Assembly: GCA_028713655.1 (NCBI GenBank)
Contig: JAQTNW010000033.1
Location: forward strand, 1-38,227
Reading direction: 5' to 3'
Origin: Candidatus Methylacidiphilales bacterium
GTDB lineage: Bacteria; Verrucomicrobiota; Verrucomicrobiia; Methylacidiphilales; JAAUTS01
Length of the DNA: 38,227 nucleotides
Below are positions 6,682 to 12,667 of the stretch, piece by piece. The stretch's first letter is position 1. Each line of letters starts with the position of its first letter. The notes under the pieces are model-generated. The model searched no databases. It saw nothing but the letters and a program-made list of their open reading frames with translations, and was not told where the DNA came from. Made by a program: the position numbers and the translations under genes.

Positions 6682-6752
6682 TAAGATCTTTTTTATGAAT
6701 ATCTTACAAATAATTATGTATTGACTTGCTATATTCATTATCTATTCATTAT
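6682..6752 (+). promoter_or_regulatory. Operator-like repeats upstream of the HipA-family gene
   Basis: TAAGAT (6682-6687) and ATCTTA (6701-6706) form an inverted repeat. Further down, TATTCATTAT occurs twice exactly (6732-6741 and 6743-6752), 11 bp or one helical turn apart. A third, inverted TATTCATA lies at 6694-6701. These abut the proposed start codon, where a self-repressing DNA-binding protein would be expected to bind. The gene product has its own N-terminal winged-helix region. Confidence 0.45.
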
Positions 6753-6755
6753 GCT

Positions 6756-8123
6756 GTGAGAGCAAACGAGCAAATTCTGTCCCAGGAGCTGCGGCAACGC
6801 GGCCTGGCCGCTTCGTCTGAACTGACCCAGGCTTGCCGGATCAGCCAGCCCACCGTCTCGCGTACCATTCATTCCTTTGGGTCTGCCGTTTTTAGGACCG
6901 GAGCCGGCCCCAGCACCCGCTATGGCCTTTATCGGGGTGTTCGTTCCCACGGGCGGCAATGGCCTTTGTATGTGGTGGATTCGGAAGGAGAACCGCATCA
7001 CGGAGGCGCCCTCACGTCCATGCACGAACGTTATTTTCACATTAGCGCCAATGAGCCGCTTCACCCGCTGCTTGCCGGAGAATTCGCGTCGGGATTGTTC
7101 CGGGACCTTCCCTGGTTTTTGCAGGACCTGCGCCCGCAAGGCTTTCTTGGCCGCGCGTTTGCGCGAACCCATCACCTCGAATTGTCGGCCCCGCAGGATC
7201 CCCGGCTATGGATGGCGGATGATATTCTGAGCGGGCTGCTAGTCAACGGCCATGACAATTCCGGAAACATTATTGTCGGGGACAAATCTCTTAATCTGTT
7301 CATGTCGGAACGCGCGTCCGGCATCACCCCAATTCCAGCCAGCCAGAAACTGCAGCATTACGATCCGCTCGCAAACAGGACGATTGCCGGAGAACCTTGC
7401 GGTTCCACCGCTGCGGGCGAACAACCCAAGTTTTGCGCCTGCATAGAGGATGACAATGGCGCCATGCGGCGCGTGATCGTAAAATTCTCCCCGCCCAGGA
7501 ACAGCCCCGCGGGTGTGCGATGGGCCGATCTCCTGTGCTCCGAGCAGACCGCCCTGTCCATCCTGGCGCAAAACGGAATGCCCGCAGCGGAGGCCCGTCT
7601 CCTGCAGGGAGAAAACCGGACTTATTTTGAATCGACCCGATTCGACCGTTTGGGCGCGCATGGACGCAGGGGCATGGTCTCATTGGCCGCGGTGGATGCA
7701 GCCTATTTTGGCGAGGAGCAAACACCCTGGTACAATTGCGCGGAACGATTGGAACAGTTTGGTAAGTTAGGTGAAAACGAGGCTGCAACGCTCAGGGCCT
7801 ATTATTGGTACGGGCAATTGATTGCCAACAGCGACATGCACTACGGCAATGCCAGCCTGTTCTGGGACAATGCGGGATTCAGAACCGCGCCATGCTACGA
7901 CATGCTGCCAATGGCCTATTCCCCGCGTGAAGGCGGCGAAATCGTCAACCCGGAATTCCGGCCCGTTCCTGCTCCTCCTCAATACCGGGAGGAATGGCAA
8001 CGGGCAGGACAATGGGCGTGCGACTTCTGGGCAGCCATGGCGGATGACGCCCGTGTCAGCCCGGAGTTTCGCGGGATCAGCGGCGCGAATCTTCGGGCTG
8101 TGAAAGACGTATTAAGAAATTAA
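6756..8123 (+). CDS. hipH: Stand-alone HipA-family kinase toxin, YjjJ/HipH type
   Basis: The 455-residue product resembles YjjJ (HipH): an N-terminal winged-helix part (about 1-45, ISQPTVSRTIHSFG) fused to a HipA-like serine/threonine kinase. The kinase core shows AAGEQPKF, a VKFSPP strand, the catalytic Asp in NSDMHYGN (Asp360) and the metal-binding Asp in CYDMLPM (Asp382). The 22-residue spacing between these two is close to that of classical HipA. No HipB-like gene lies nearby, as expected if the DNA-binding half is built in. GTG 6756 is preferred because the TTG at 6726 lies inside the direct-repeat region; neither has a clear ribosome-binding site. HipA-type kinases can halt translation by phosphorylating targets such as aminoacyl-tRNA synthetases; the target here is unknown. 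Confidence 0.85.
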   Translation: MRANEQILSQELRQRGLAASSELTQACRISQPTVSRTIHSFGSAVFRTGAGPSTRYGLYRGVRSHGRQWPLYVVDSEGEPHHGGALTSMHERYFHISANEPLHPLLAGEFASGLFRDLPWFLQDLRPQGFLGRAFARTHHLELSAPQDPRLWMADDILSGLLVNGHDNSGNIIVGDKSLNLFMSERASGITPIPASQKLQHYDPLANRTIAGEPCGSTAAGEQPKFCACIEDDNGAMRRVIVKFSPPRNSPAGVRWADLLCSEQTALSILAQNGMPAAEARLLQGENRTYFESTRFDRLGAHGRRGMVSLAAVDAAYFGEEQTPWYNCAERLEQFGKLGENEAATLRAYYWYGQLIANSDMHYGNASLFWDNAGFRTAPCYDMLPMAYSPREGGEIVNPEFRPVPAPPQYREEWQRAGQWACDFWAAMADDARVSPEFRGISGANLRAVKDVLRN

Positions 8124-8833
8124 AACGACAGCGTTCCGCCGGACTGCAAGCCGCTTATGATTTTGCGGAGCAGTTCCTCCCGCTGTCTCGGATCTTCAGG
8201 AAGCGGATAGACCACTTCCACTGACCGCGAAAGCGGGCCTCCCGGACGCAGCACATGCACCACGCCCTTTTCGTCGTCAAACCATATCCGGGCCTTGGGA
8301 TGATTGTTCCATCCGCTCTTTTGCCAATCGGAAAATTCGTCCTCCTTTTCAAAGGTCCTGACCGTCACCTGCCGCTGCAATCCGGAAGGCAAAGCATCCT
8401 GTTCCCCGCGCACGGCGTACCCCGCATAGGAGCCGAACTCGACCGGGCCCGATCCCACCCAAATTGACTGCCACAGCAGCATCCCTAAAATAGCAGCGCA
8501 GGCTCCCGACAACATGAATGCCGGCGCAGGTCGAAAAATGGTACGCCATGAAAAAAACGGAGCCCGCTCCTCGGCGAATTTTTGCGGAAACACCCTTCGC
8601 ACGGCCGCCCTTAATTCCGGCAGACGATAAGCGGGCAGTTTGTCCGTCTGGGCTTCCAAAGCCTGCAGCGAAGGCACGATCGCACGCGCAATCCGTAGGG
8701 CTTCCTTCAACTCCAGCCATTGCTCCATTTTCCCGGGGTCTTCGGCAATCACCCGCTGCAACAGCGCCGTTTCTTCGGCATTGGCTGTTCCTTCCAATAC
8801 CTTCAACACCAGGGATTCAAATTCCGGGTCCAT
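8120..8833 (-). CDS. Putative membrane anti-sigma factor
   Basis: The 237-residue product starts 6 nt after the ECF sigma gene ends, the usual layout for a sigma/anti-sigma operon. The N-terminal half (about 1-90) is helical and acidic (ANAEETALLQRVIAEDP), like the sigma-binding domain of membrane anti-sigma factors. One transmembrane helix follows (about 104-127), then a 110-residue periplasmic part. A canonical zinc-binding HxxxCxxC motif is absent. The function is inferred mainly from context and topology. Its stop overlaps the end of the convergent HipA-family gene by 4 bp. Confidence 0.7.
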   Translation of the reverse strand: MDPEFESLVLKVLEGTANAEETALLQRVIAEDPGKMEQWLELKEALRIARAIVPSLQALEAQTDKLPAYRLPELRAAVRRVFPQKFAEERAPFFSWRTIFRPAPAFMLSGACAAILGMLLWQSIWVGSGPVEFGSYAGYAVRGEQDALPSGLQRQVTVRTFEKEDEFSDWQKSGWNNHPKARIWFDDEKGVVHVLRPGGPLSRSVEVVYPLPEDPRQREELLRKIISGLQSGGTLSF

Positions 8834-8839
8834 ACTAAA

Positions 8840-9454
8840 TTATCGCAAAAAGTTGCGGATTTCTTTCAACAATCGCGGTTTTTGTTCGATCCCCTGCCTG
8901 ATTTTTCTGAGACCGCGGGACAGATGGACGCCCACACTGCCAATGGGGATCTCGTGCTTTTCGGCCAGTTCCTTGTACGGAATGCCTTCCACCAAGTAAT
9001 CATAAATCAGCCACCGGGTCAGCGGTTCGAGGGGTTCCATTGCTTCCCGCAACAAGACCGAGAGCTCCTTCAAATCGCGGGGTTGCAGGTTTTCCGCCAG
9101 CCGTTCCGCCGGTTCGAACGCGCCTTCGCTTTCCTCCTGCAATTGCTCAATGCTGCCGACCTGCCCGCCGCCGCGCTTTTGGGCGGTGGCTTTGCGCTTT
9201 TCGGAAATCGCCCGGCGTGCCGACATTGTCACAGCGAGACAACGCAGCCCTTCCCAATCCGACGCCGTTTGCACTTTCGTGATCAGTTCGGTCAGCGTCT
9301 CGATGGCCACATCCTCAGCTTCCGAGGGTGTGAGTCCTGCGAGCGGATGCCGGGCCGCTGCAAAAACACAGGGATACAAGAGCTGAAACGCCTCTTCCCA
9401 GGCGGCCTCGCTGCCTTTCCGCAATGCCTGCAACAATTCCATTTCCGGCGCCAT
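8840..9454 (-). CDS. ECF-type RNA polymerase sigma factor
   Basis: The 204-residue protein has the sigma-70 family region 2 (about 20-85, including LTPSEAEDVAIETLTELI) and a C-terminal region 4 helix-turn-helix (about 155-190, GIPYKELAEKHEIPIGSVG then RGLRKIRQ). Region 3 is absent, as in ECF sigma factors. The linker (about 95-130) is long and glutamate-rich. It is the first gene of a two-gene operon with the anti-sigma factor and diverges from the TPR-CHAT gene across about 260 bp, which could hold a promoter it controls itself. An internal ATG four codons in (MELLQAL) is an alternative start. Confidence 0.85.
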   Translation of the reverse strand: MAPEMELLQALRKGSEAAWEEAFQLLYPCVFAAARHPLAGLTPSEAEDVAIETLTELITKVQTASDWEGLRCLAVTMSARRAISEKRKATAQKRGGGQVGSIEQLQEESEGAFEPAERLAENLQPRDLKELSVLLREAMEPLEPLTRWLIYDYLVEGIPYKELAEKHEIPIGSVGVHLSRGLRKIRQGIEQKPRLLKEIRNFLR

Positions 9455-9618
9455 CCCGCACGATGCTGAGTCAAACTGGCAGGTCTATCAAGAGCCAAAG
9501 GGGGGCCTGGAAATTGTTCTTAGTTTCCAGTTCTTTGTTGCCGGTGTTAAACCGCTAAAATGATTTTTTCTTCCTTCGCGTCTCGCGCAAGGCTTGATGT
9601 TTAAATTTGAAAAGATTC

Positions 9619-9637
9619 CTTGGGCGAGCCGCCCAAG
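9619..9637. repeat. Perfect hairpin CTTGGGCG-AGC-CGCCCAAG
   Basis: An 8-bp perfect stem with a 3-nt loop lies in the divergent region between the ECF sigma and TPR-CHAT genes. It is not followed by a U-run on either strand. It resembles short palindromic intergenic repeats more than a terminator. Confidence 0.5.
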
Positions 9638-9715
9638 CCACACTGGAAAATGAAGGCGCGCTTGCGGTAGTATAAAATGCCAAGCATAATGATATCGCAC
9701 AATGAGTGGCCTTCT

Positions 9716-12667
9716 GTGAAACCGGCTTTATTTCTATTTCTGGCGCTTCTTTCCGTCCATCCGGCGGCGCCAACTTCAATAGACTGGCAAACGCGCTATC
9801 AAGAAGTCAGTCAACTCGAAAAATCCGGCCAGGCCGATCAGGCGCAGGCCCTGGCCGAAAACATCGCCTCGGAGGCGGAAAATCGTGTCGGCCCGCAATC
9901 CAGCGAGCTTGTCCCCGTCCTGAAAGAACTCAGCCAGCTTTACCTTCGACGGCATCTGTATCCGAAAGCAGAAGCTCTTCTCCAGCGCATGCTTGAAATT
10001 CAGGAAAAGAATTTCGGGCCGGACGATCCCAAGACCGCCGACGCCGTTTCGGATCTTGGCTGGTATTACCAAAACATGGCCGATTACCCCCGCGCCCGGA
10101 AACTCCTGCAACGCTCGCTGGAAATCCGCGAGGCAAAATTGGGGCGCCGGCATGAGGCGGTCGCCGATTCCCTGAACAGCCTGGGCGTCCTTTCGGAAAA
10201 TCTCGGCGAGTTCAAGCAATCGGAACAATACTATCTCGAAGCGCTGCAAATCCGGCGCGAACTGCTGGGCCCGGACCACCCCTCCACCGGCACCACCACC
10301 AATAATCTGGCGACCCTGTATTGGAGCCTCGGCGATTATGGCCGGGCCGAACAATATTTCAACGAAGCCCTGCGCATCCGGGAAAAGGATTTCGGGCCGC
10401 TCGCCCTCAGCACCGCGACCAGCATGAATAATCTCGCCCTGCTCTACCGCAGCATGGGCGATTACAGCCGCGCCCGTCCGCTATATTTGAAGGTCCTGGC
10501 CATTCGCGAAGCCAAACTCGGGCCCGAGCATCCCTTCACTCTCACCACAGTCCATCAACTCGCCCTGCTCTATGCCGATCTCGGCGATTATCCAAAAGCC
10601 GAACAGCTCCTGCTCCGGGCTGTGCGCGGACGCGAGAAAGTCTTCGGTTCCGAACATCCGGACACGGCCCGCAGCCTTTTCCATCTGGCCTGGCTCTACG
10701 ACCGCGAAAAGGAGTACGACCAGGCCGAACCGCTGCATCTCAAGGCTTTGGCGCTACGAATCAAAGTGCTCGGTGAAAAACATCCCGAGACAGCCGGCAG
10801 CTATGGTTATCTCGCCCGGCATTACCATCTTCAGGGCAAACTCGCCGAGGCGGAGCCTCTTTATAAGAAGGCGCTGGATTTGCAAATCCAGTTGTTGGGG
10901 GAAAACGCCCCTGACACGCTCAAGACCGTGGAAAACCTGGCCTGCCTCTACCTCGACGAAAACAAGCCTGACCTGAGCCTGTCCTATGCACGCAAAGCCA
11001 TGCAGACCCGCGAATCCATGCTGCAAAATCTTTTCACCTTCACCTCCGAACACCAGCGCATCGATTTCCAAAAAACGCTCAGCCTCTATAACCTGCCGGC
11101 CAGCCTTGGGAATCCCGACGACATCGCGCGCGTCGCCTTCCGCACCAAGGGCGTTGTGCTGGATTCCATGATCGAAGACCAGATCGCGGCCCGTGCTTCC
11201 AAAGACCCCGACGTCGCCCGCCTTTTCGACCAATTGCAATCGGTTTCCAGGCGCCTGCTTCGTGCCGAAATGCGTCTGCCGGAAGATCCGGGAGCAACTC
11301 CGCCGGGCGGAGGAAGTGAACTTGAGAAACTGCAACAGGAGGAAAATGTCCTGCAGGCGGGGTTTGCGAGAAAAATCTCAGGCAACAGTTCCGCGCGCCG
11401 CGCGTTGCAGATCGACCCCGGACAAATCCGCAAAGCCATTCCAAAAAACTCCGTTCTGATCGAATGGCTGCGCTACGAAGCCTATCAAAAAAATCTTCAA
11501 ACCAAAACCGCCTATGGCGCGCTCGTTCTTGCGCCCGGAATGCCGGACCGCTGGGTGCCGCTCGGCGACGCCGCGGAAATCGATTCATTGGTTCGCAGCT
11601 ACCAAAAATACATGCACCATCGCGTCCGCGATGCCGCAGTCGATCGCGTCACGAGTGATTTGTCCGAAAAAACCTGGGCGCCACTGGCGTCTGTTTTCCC
11701 GCCAGGCACCGAACAGGTTATTCTCAGCCCGGATGGCCCGTTGAATTTTGTATCCTTTGCCGCATTGCCCATGCAGGACGGCAGGTTCTGGGCGGAAAAA
11801 TATTTCTTCACCTATGTTTCCAGCGGACGTGATCTGCTGCGAAAAAATCAACCACCGGCAAACGATCAAAAAATCGCGGTTTTTGCCAATCCGGATTACA
11901 AACTCCGCACAGCACCCGCCAACGCAATACCCGCCGTGGCTTCCGGCGGCGATCTCCTGCGACAGTTCGACGGCATTGAATTGTCGCCGCTGTCCGGTTC
12001 CGAGGACGAGGCCCGCTTTCTGGTCCAGCGCAGTGTTCCCTGGAAATGCGACACAGTCTGTTATCTGGGGAAGCAAGCCACAGAATCCAACCTTTCCGCG
12101 CTGCATTCCCCGCTTGTTCTGCACATGGCCACGCATGGCTTGTTTTTGCCTGAGCCGGGCTCACCTGTTGTTTCTTCGGTCCCGGACCGTTCGGGCAATC
12201 CCAAGCCGTCCATTGTACTGGCTGATCCCATGCAGCGCAGCATGTTGCTGCTGGCGGGCGCACAACGCACTTTCGACGCCTGGCAGAAAGGCATTGTTCC
12301 GCCAACCGAGAACGACGGCATTGTCAGCGCCGGGGAAGTCGGCGGGCTCGATCTTCAGGGAACCTGGCTCGTTGTTTTGTCCGCCTGCGACACCGGGCAG
12401 GGCGAGGCCCGGGCTGGAGAAGGGGTGTTAGGCCTGCGGCGGGGGTTTGTCATGGCCGGGGCTCAGAATTTGTTGCTTACGCTTTGGCCTGTGGGCGATT
12501 CCGAAACAGTGTCATTGATGGAATCCTTTTATGACAAGGCGTTCGAGACACGAGACGCACCGCGGGCGCTGGCTTTGGTCCAGCGTGAGCGATTGGAGTT
12601 GTTGCGAAAAAAATACGGCCTGGGCCAGGCCATCCGGCTCTCCGGTCCGTTTATTTTGAGTTTTTGA
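9716..12667 (+). CDS. Exported TPR-CHAT protein (caspase-like peptidase domain)
   Basis: The 983-residue product begins with a signal peptide (MKPALFLFLALLSVHPAAP). About nine tandem 42-residue tetratricopeptide repeats follow (roughly 60-430; repeated pattern LAxLYxxxGDYxxAExLxxxAL). A helical linker leads to a C-terminal CHAT domain. The caspase-like dyad is visible as His807 in HMATHGLFL and Cys891 in VVLSACDTGQGE, followed by the family's GEGVLGLRRGFVMAGA and LWPVGD motifs. GTG 9716 is chosen because it gives a clean signal peptide. An ATG at 9677 adds 13 residues but lies right on a TATAAA box (9671-9676) that could be its promoter. It diverges from an ECF sigma/anti-sigma operon. Some TPR-CHAT proteins are proteases in signalling or defence; the substrate here is unknown. 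Confidence 0.85.
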   Translation: MKPALFLFLALLSVHPAAPTSIDWQTRYQEVSQLEKSGQADQAQALAENIASEAENRVGPQSSELVPVLKELSQLYLRRHLYPKAEALLQRMLEIQEKNFGPDDPKTADAVSDLGWYYQNMADYPRARKLLQRSLEIREAKLGRRHEAVADSLNSLGVLSENLGEFKQSEQYYLEALQIRRELLGPDHPSTGTTTNNLATLYWSLGDYGRAEQYFNEALRIREKDFGPLALSTATSMNNLALLYRSMGDYSRARPLYLKVLAIREAKLGPEHPFTLTTVHQLALLYADLGDYPKAEQLLLRAVRGREKVFGSEHPDTARSLFHLAWLYDREKEYDQAEPLHLKALALRIKVLGEKHPETAGSYGYLARHYHLQGKLAEAEPLYKKALDLQIQLLGENAPDTLKTVENLACLYLDENKPDLSLSYARKAMQTRESMLQNLFTFTSEHQRIDFQKTLSLYNLPASLGNPDDIARVAFRTKGVVLDSMIEDQIAARASKDPDVARLFDQLQSVSRRLLRAEMRLPEDPGATPPGGGSELEKLQQEENVLQAGFARKISGNSSARRALQIDPGQIRKAIPKNSVLIEWLRYEAYQKNLQTKTAYGALVLAPGMPDRWVPLGDAAEIDSLVRSYQKYMHHRVRDAAVDRVTSDLSEKTWAPLASVFPPGTEQVILSPDGPLNFVSFAALPMQDGRFWAEKYFFTYVSSGRDLLRKNQPPANDQKIAVFANPDYKLRTAPANAIPAVASGGDLLRQFDGIELSPLSGSEDEARFLVQRSVPWKCDTVCYLGKQATESNLSALHSPLVLHMATHGLFLPEPGSPVVSSVPDRSGNPKPSIVLADPMQRSMLLLAGAQRTFDAWQKGIVPPTENDGIVSAGEVGGLDLQGTWLVVLSACDTGQGEARAGEGVLGLRRGFVMAGAQNLLLTLWPVGDSETVSLMESFYDKAFETRDAPRALALVQRERLELLRKKYGLGQAIRLSGPFILSF

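Follow-up and report, generated by a model that had tools for sequence, protein, structure and literature searches.

A Conserved Sigma Factor, Anti-Sigma Factor and Exported TPR-CHAT Protein

In a 38,227-nucleotide stretch of DNA from a Candidatus Methylacidiphilales bacterium (JAQTNW010000033.1, positions 1 to 38,227, hereafter called the window), the genes for an extracytoplasmic function (ECF) sigma factor and a putative anti-sigma factor lie divergent from a gene for an exported protein with tetratricopeptide repeats (TPRs) and a CHAT domain, and, as judged from gene neighbourhoods and predicted protein architectures, the combination of sigma factor, single-pass anti-sigma factor and exported TPR-CHAT protein is a conserved set. 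We propose, with moderate confidence, that the three proteins form an envelope-to-transcription signalling module in which the exported TPR-CHAT protein would act on the periplasmic part of the anti-sigma factor, presumably by cleaving it. The arrangement suggests that a secreted protein switches the sigma factor on by cutting or gripping its inhibitor outside the cytoplasm, and we read it as a switch like DdvS/DdvA but divided between two proteins and acting in trans, in which the anti-sigma factor's periplasmic domain would be the most likely site of TPR-CHAT action. To our knowledge, little has been described of how secreted TPR-CHAT proteins work, and a search of the literature available to us found no description of the three-gene set, which gives one class of these proteins a candidate substrate and, in the form of sigma activity, an in vivo read-out. 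In evolutionary terms the set also ties them to the sigma switches of Craspase and DdvA, which makes it possible to test whether bacteria control transcription in a caspase-like way more widely, and not just as a peculiarity of clustered regularly interspaced short palindromic repeats (CRISPR).

Table 1. Features of the three-gene locus in the window
Feature	Coordinates	Strand	Description
ECF sigma factor, 204 aa	8840..9454	-	PF07638, PF08281, TIGR02937; homologues 48-61% identical
Anti-sigma factor (putative), 237 aa	8120..8833	-	6 bp behind sigma; helical N-terminal domain 1-81, transmembrane helix about 103-125, periplasmic alpha/beta domain 127-234
Exported TPR-CHAT protein (predicted), 996 aa	9677..12667	+	signal sequence, ~10 kinesin-light-chain-like TPRs, CHAT domain 660-974, His820 and Cys904
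Divergent intergenic region, 222 bp	9455..9676	.	perfect 7-bp inverted repeat CTGGAAA-N10-TTTCCAG at 9507-9530

Linkage and Co-occurrence across the Phylum

The original prediction, made from the window's sequence, had set a sigma/anti-sigma pair divergent from a TPR-CHAT gene; all three genes are in place (Table 1), and the linkage on which its reasoning hinged is indeed kept across families and gene orders. About ten families of the phylum, probably Verrucomicrobiota, encode as neighbours a sigma factor, an anti-sigma factor with a single transmembrane (TM) helix and a TPR-CHAT protein with a signal sequence, in three gene orders: divergent (f1, f9, f10 and f25, where f, g, G and L denote our families, genera, genomes and loci), sigma–anti-sigma–CHAT on the same strand (f12, f19, f21 and f64), and CHAT–sigma followed by a single-TM protein (f11 and f109, the latter a family outside the class). 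The divergent genes are adjacent in f1 (the window and G001) and in genus g11 of f9 (G014 and G024); in G039 of the same genus the divergent sigma gene is cut off by the end of the contig, and the linked loci L038, L051, L065 and L066 likewise rest on contig-edge fragments. Outside the class, the phylum-level survey shows the pair to be rare.

Co-occurrence persists where linkage does not. Among 62 genomes of the window's order the anti-sigma factor is found in 12 and the CHAT protein in 9, and all 9 CHAT genomes are among those 12, even where the genes are unlinked; the three genomes with an anti-sigma factor and no CHAT protein found are 65-83% complete, and otherwise the absence of one is the absence of the other. 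Co-occurrence also follows anti-sigma architecture, as a CHAT protein was found in 16 of the 20 genomes whose anti-sigma factor has the TM helix and periplasmic domain versus none of the 5 without that domain (p 0.002, uncorrected), the latter being L072-L076, where the absence of CHAT holds at the threshold used. At L074 (6204-7583) and L075 (5828-7213), in genomes with no CHAT protein at that threshold, related anti-sigma N-terminal domains follow what by eye resembles an FHA domain.

That this neighbourhood reflects chance or the shared ancestry of a gene block, with no functional link, we regard as very improbable. Over its 3.29 Mb the window's genome gives 12 matches to Sigma70_r4_2, from which we estimate that any one gene would have a sigma gene no more than 2 kb away by chance in ~3% of cases; of the 18 families sampled, about 9 have a sigma gene next to TPR-CHAT (binomial probability ~1e-9 at 3% and ~1e-5 at 9%, phylogeny being ignored). 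A single phylum supplies all of the data and the order-level counts are non-independent, which would suit common ancestry, whereas the three gene orders, the several separate CHAT clades, the co-occurrence retained after loss of linkage and the low chance expectation per locus argue against it. In the CHAT tree the linked members fall in separate clades, which points either to an ancient association that was later lost in places or to repeated gains.

Predicted Topology and Catalytic Centre

The sigma protein contains both the sigma2 and sigma4 regions of an ECF-type factor, with Pfam matches to PF07638 (E 5e-9) and PF08281 (E 4e-8) and a TIGR02937 match above cut-off. Its partner matched no family in a Pfam and NCBIfam scan, and we take it for a putative anti-sigma factor because it lies 6 bp behind the sigma gene, shows conserved co-occurrence with that gene and has a domain layout typical of single-pass proteins. 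The AlphaFold2 model (mean predicted local distance difference test, pLDDT, 82) shows this layout as a four-helix N-terminus, predicted to be cytoplasmic, a single TM helix at 107-125 and a C-terminal alpha/beta domain, the last of which, predicted to be periplasmic, is conserved in homologue alignments A1 and A4. The VIA comparison matched the N-terminus to RsiW (5wuq_D) at Z 7.0, a score that helical bundles can attain by chance; Foldseek returned for the model just anticodon-binding-like matches, all of them to the periplasmic domain and weaker than E 0.001, and PDB sequence searches with the anti-sigma and sigma profiles gave nothing useful.

The third protein matches TPR_12 (E 5e-88) and, over residues 660-974, CHAT PF12770 (E 4e-51), and its model (pLDDT 86; predicted template modelling score, pTM, 0.83) ranks Csx29 first in Foldseek (E 6e-15), DdvA second (E 8e-14) and then separase. 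Searched against PDB sequences, the CHAT profile matches just one significantly, namely DdvA (8rot) at E 3e-4 in the region of the Cys motif, and a scan of genome contigs with the CHAT protein yielded just one distant Bacteroidia TPR protein. An intact His/Cys motif and a signal peptide had also been claimed. The former stands, with His820 and Cys904 both present, as expected of a CHAT peptidase, and unchanged in all 28 CHAT domains of alignment A6; so does the latter, in that the N-terminus in the window is hydrophobic, but its cleavage site is weak and homologues are clearer, for example MPPRLLLLLLLLALVPGLMWAQS, signal-like N-terminal sequences being present on the linked CHAT proteins as judged from hydropathy and by eye.

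Every linked CHAT protein that covers the active site keeps both His and Cys, and some unlinked paralogues are degraded there, L053 lacking the His and L079 both residues, which suggests that catalysis is under selection. This pattern counts against a reading in which the TPR-CHAT protein would be a co-sensor and not a protease, binding the periplasmic domain of the anti-sigma factor and thereby controlling when other proteases degrade that factor, in the way that RseB works on RseA. The linkage and co-occurrence data would fit such a co-sensor equally well, TPR arrays are well known for binding other molecules, and the DdvA active site is described as incomplete; on balance we consider the co-sensor unlikely.

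Among the wider CHAT homologues, FHA-TM-TPR-CHAT proteins are encoded at L068 (5782-9417) and L079 (5060-8515), the latter without either catalytic residue, and proteins of more than 2100 aa with TPR and CHAT regions at L054 (7115-13582) and L055 (3027-9386), the L055 protein showing a Ser/Thr kinase domain when scanned. The G001 TPR-CHAT gene (L031, 9466-12155) is split across two overlapping frames by a frameshift or an assembly error.

A Proposed Split Counterpart of Known Sigma Switches

DdvA of Myxococcus xanthus is reportedly an anti-sigma factor with a separase/craspase-type TPR-CHAT periplasmic part whose active site is incomplete; the mechanism said to have been proposed for it is autoproteolysis in trans and then a cut by RseP. 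With first place among PDB sequences for the CHAT profile and second place by fold, DdvA (8rot, 8rw5) gives the proposed logic a precedent that the original prediction had not cited. DdvA is a transmembrane anti-sigma factor and itself a CHAT protein, both on a single chain, whereas in the window and the linked loci these functions lie in separate genes: the anti-sigma factor carries a small periplasmic domain of its own, and the TPR-CHAT protein is separate, exported and equipped with both catalytic residues. DdvS becomes active once DdvA is inactivated (PMC4374960) and, according to a review, controls a defence island of CRISPR and cyclic-oligonucleotide-based anti-phage signalling (CBASS) systems (PMC12288465); no such island is seen in the window.

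The likeness to the type III-E CRISPR system Csx29/Csx30/CASP-sigma (Craspase), in which Csx29 cleaves Csx30, an inhibitor of a sigma factor (PMC10028731), had been raised in the original prediction and holds at the level of the TPR-CHAT fold, for which Csx29 is the top match. Csx29 is activated by target RNA via Cas7-11; the CHAT protein of the window is instead exported. The anti-sigma profile matched no Csx30 chain in the PDB, no cas-like genes occur among the window genes scanned, the rest of the genome not having been searched, no tandem repeats were found at 5-18 kb of the window, and PADLOC matched no curated defence model beyond the generic TPR entry PDLC01169. In the RseA/DegS/RseP and RsiW pathways the first protease is not known to be a CHAT protein. 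What these examples of regulated proteolysis (named in PMC10028731) would share with the present set is a single-pass anti-sigma factor released by an extracytoplasmic cut.

We therefore retain in part the logic originally put forward, of a periplasmic protease that cleaves the anti-sigma factor and so frees the sigma factor: the predicted topology fits, with one TM helix, a conserved periplasmic domain and an exported CHAT protein, the catalytic residues are kept and DdvA provides a precedent, while the cut itself stays conjectural. In such a module the anti-sigma factor would hold the sigma factor at the membrane and the periplasmic TPR array would sense an envelope signal or ligand, upon which the CHAT His/Cys centre could cut the anti-sigma periplasmic domain or a conserved juxtamembrane stretch as the site-1 event; intramembrane proteolysis would follow and release the sigma factor. 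More tentatively, secreted caspase-like proteases found across one phylum may form a family that makes the site-1 cut in ECF anti-sigma factors in trans, DdvA being its fused relative.

Promoter Elements and Other Possible Targets

A check for ECF promoter motifs before both transcripts had been suggested; no classical ECF promoter was found before either, and the GGAAC-type ECF pattern is not enriched (1 of 22 sigma genes, 1 of 11 CHAT genes). A CTTGCC element precedes 9 of 20 sigma genes versus 4 of 161 control genes, in all nine cases at 36-39 bp, and also lies 36 bp before the CHAT gene in L077 and L082; the pattern was picked after viewing the sequences, the genomes are related, and the window copy is without it.

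In genera g11 and g13 of f9, a large bacterial alpha-2-macroglobulin-like gene directly follows TPR-CHAT (L029, 971-6805; L030, 13568-19001; L033, 10981-12248; L038, 3441-5012), and at L035 a homologue lies ~1.7 kb from it. The window's genome has one alpha-2-macroglobulin-like gene, elsewhere (C20).

These neighbourhoods bear on a further reading, which we hold to be rather unlikely, namely that the sigma factor switches on TPR-CHAT as part of its regulon, as a secreted protease with other envelope or extracellular targets that leaves the anti-sigma factor untouched. The divergent or operon layout suits co-regulation, as does the CTTGCC element shared by many sigma genes and the two CHAT genes, and CHAT is unlinked in g13 and g14 and beside alpha-2-macroglobulin in f9. 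Yet it is the anti-sigma factors with a TM helix and periplasmic domain that track CHAT, those without the domain do not, and DdvA unites both functions in one chain.

Several observations nonetheless weigh against action on the anti-sigma factor. In f9 genera g13 and g14 CHAT and the sigma/anti-sigma pair are both present and unlinked, and this, together with the proximity to alpha-2-macroglobulin in g11 and g13, means that CHAT may have another partner in the periplasm. It is common for exported TPR-CHAT proteins to have no sigma neighbour, retention of the active site would fit any proteolytic substrate, and the anti-sigma N-terminal domain is a putative assignment from position and a low-specificity fold match.

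Neighbouring Genes and Further Observations

A gene for a HipA-family toxin, YjjJ (NF007297; window 6726-8123, + strand), converges on the anti-sigma gene and overlaps its end by 4 bp. At L047 (6843-7525), two small genes, by eye a PIN-domain toxin and an antitoxin, stand between the divergent sigma and CHAT genes. Elsewhere in the window's order, and in keeping with its probable placement in Methylacidiphilales, Verrucomicrobiota, the methanol dehydrogenase of G018 scores 1376 bits over all 577 residues against 4mae, which we take to be the methanol dehydrogenase of Methylacidiphilum fumariolicum.
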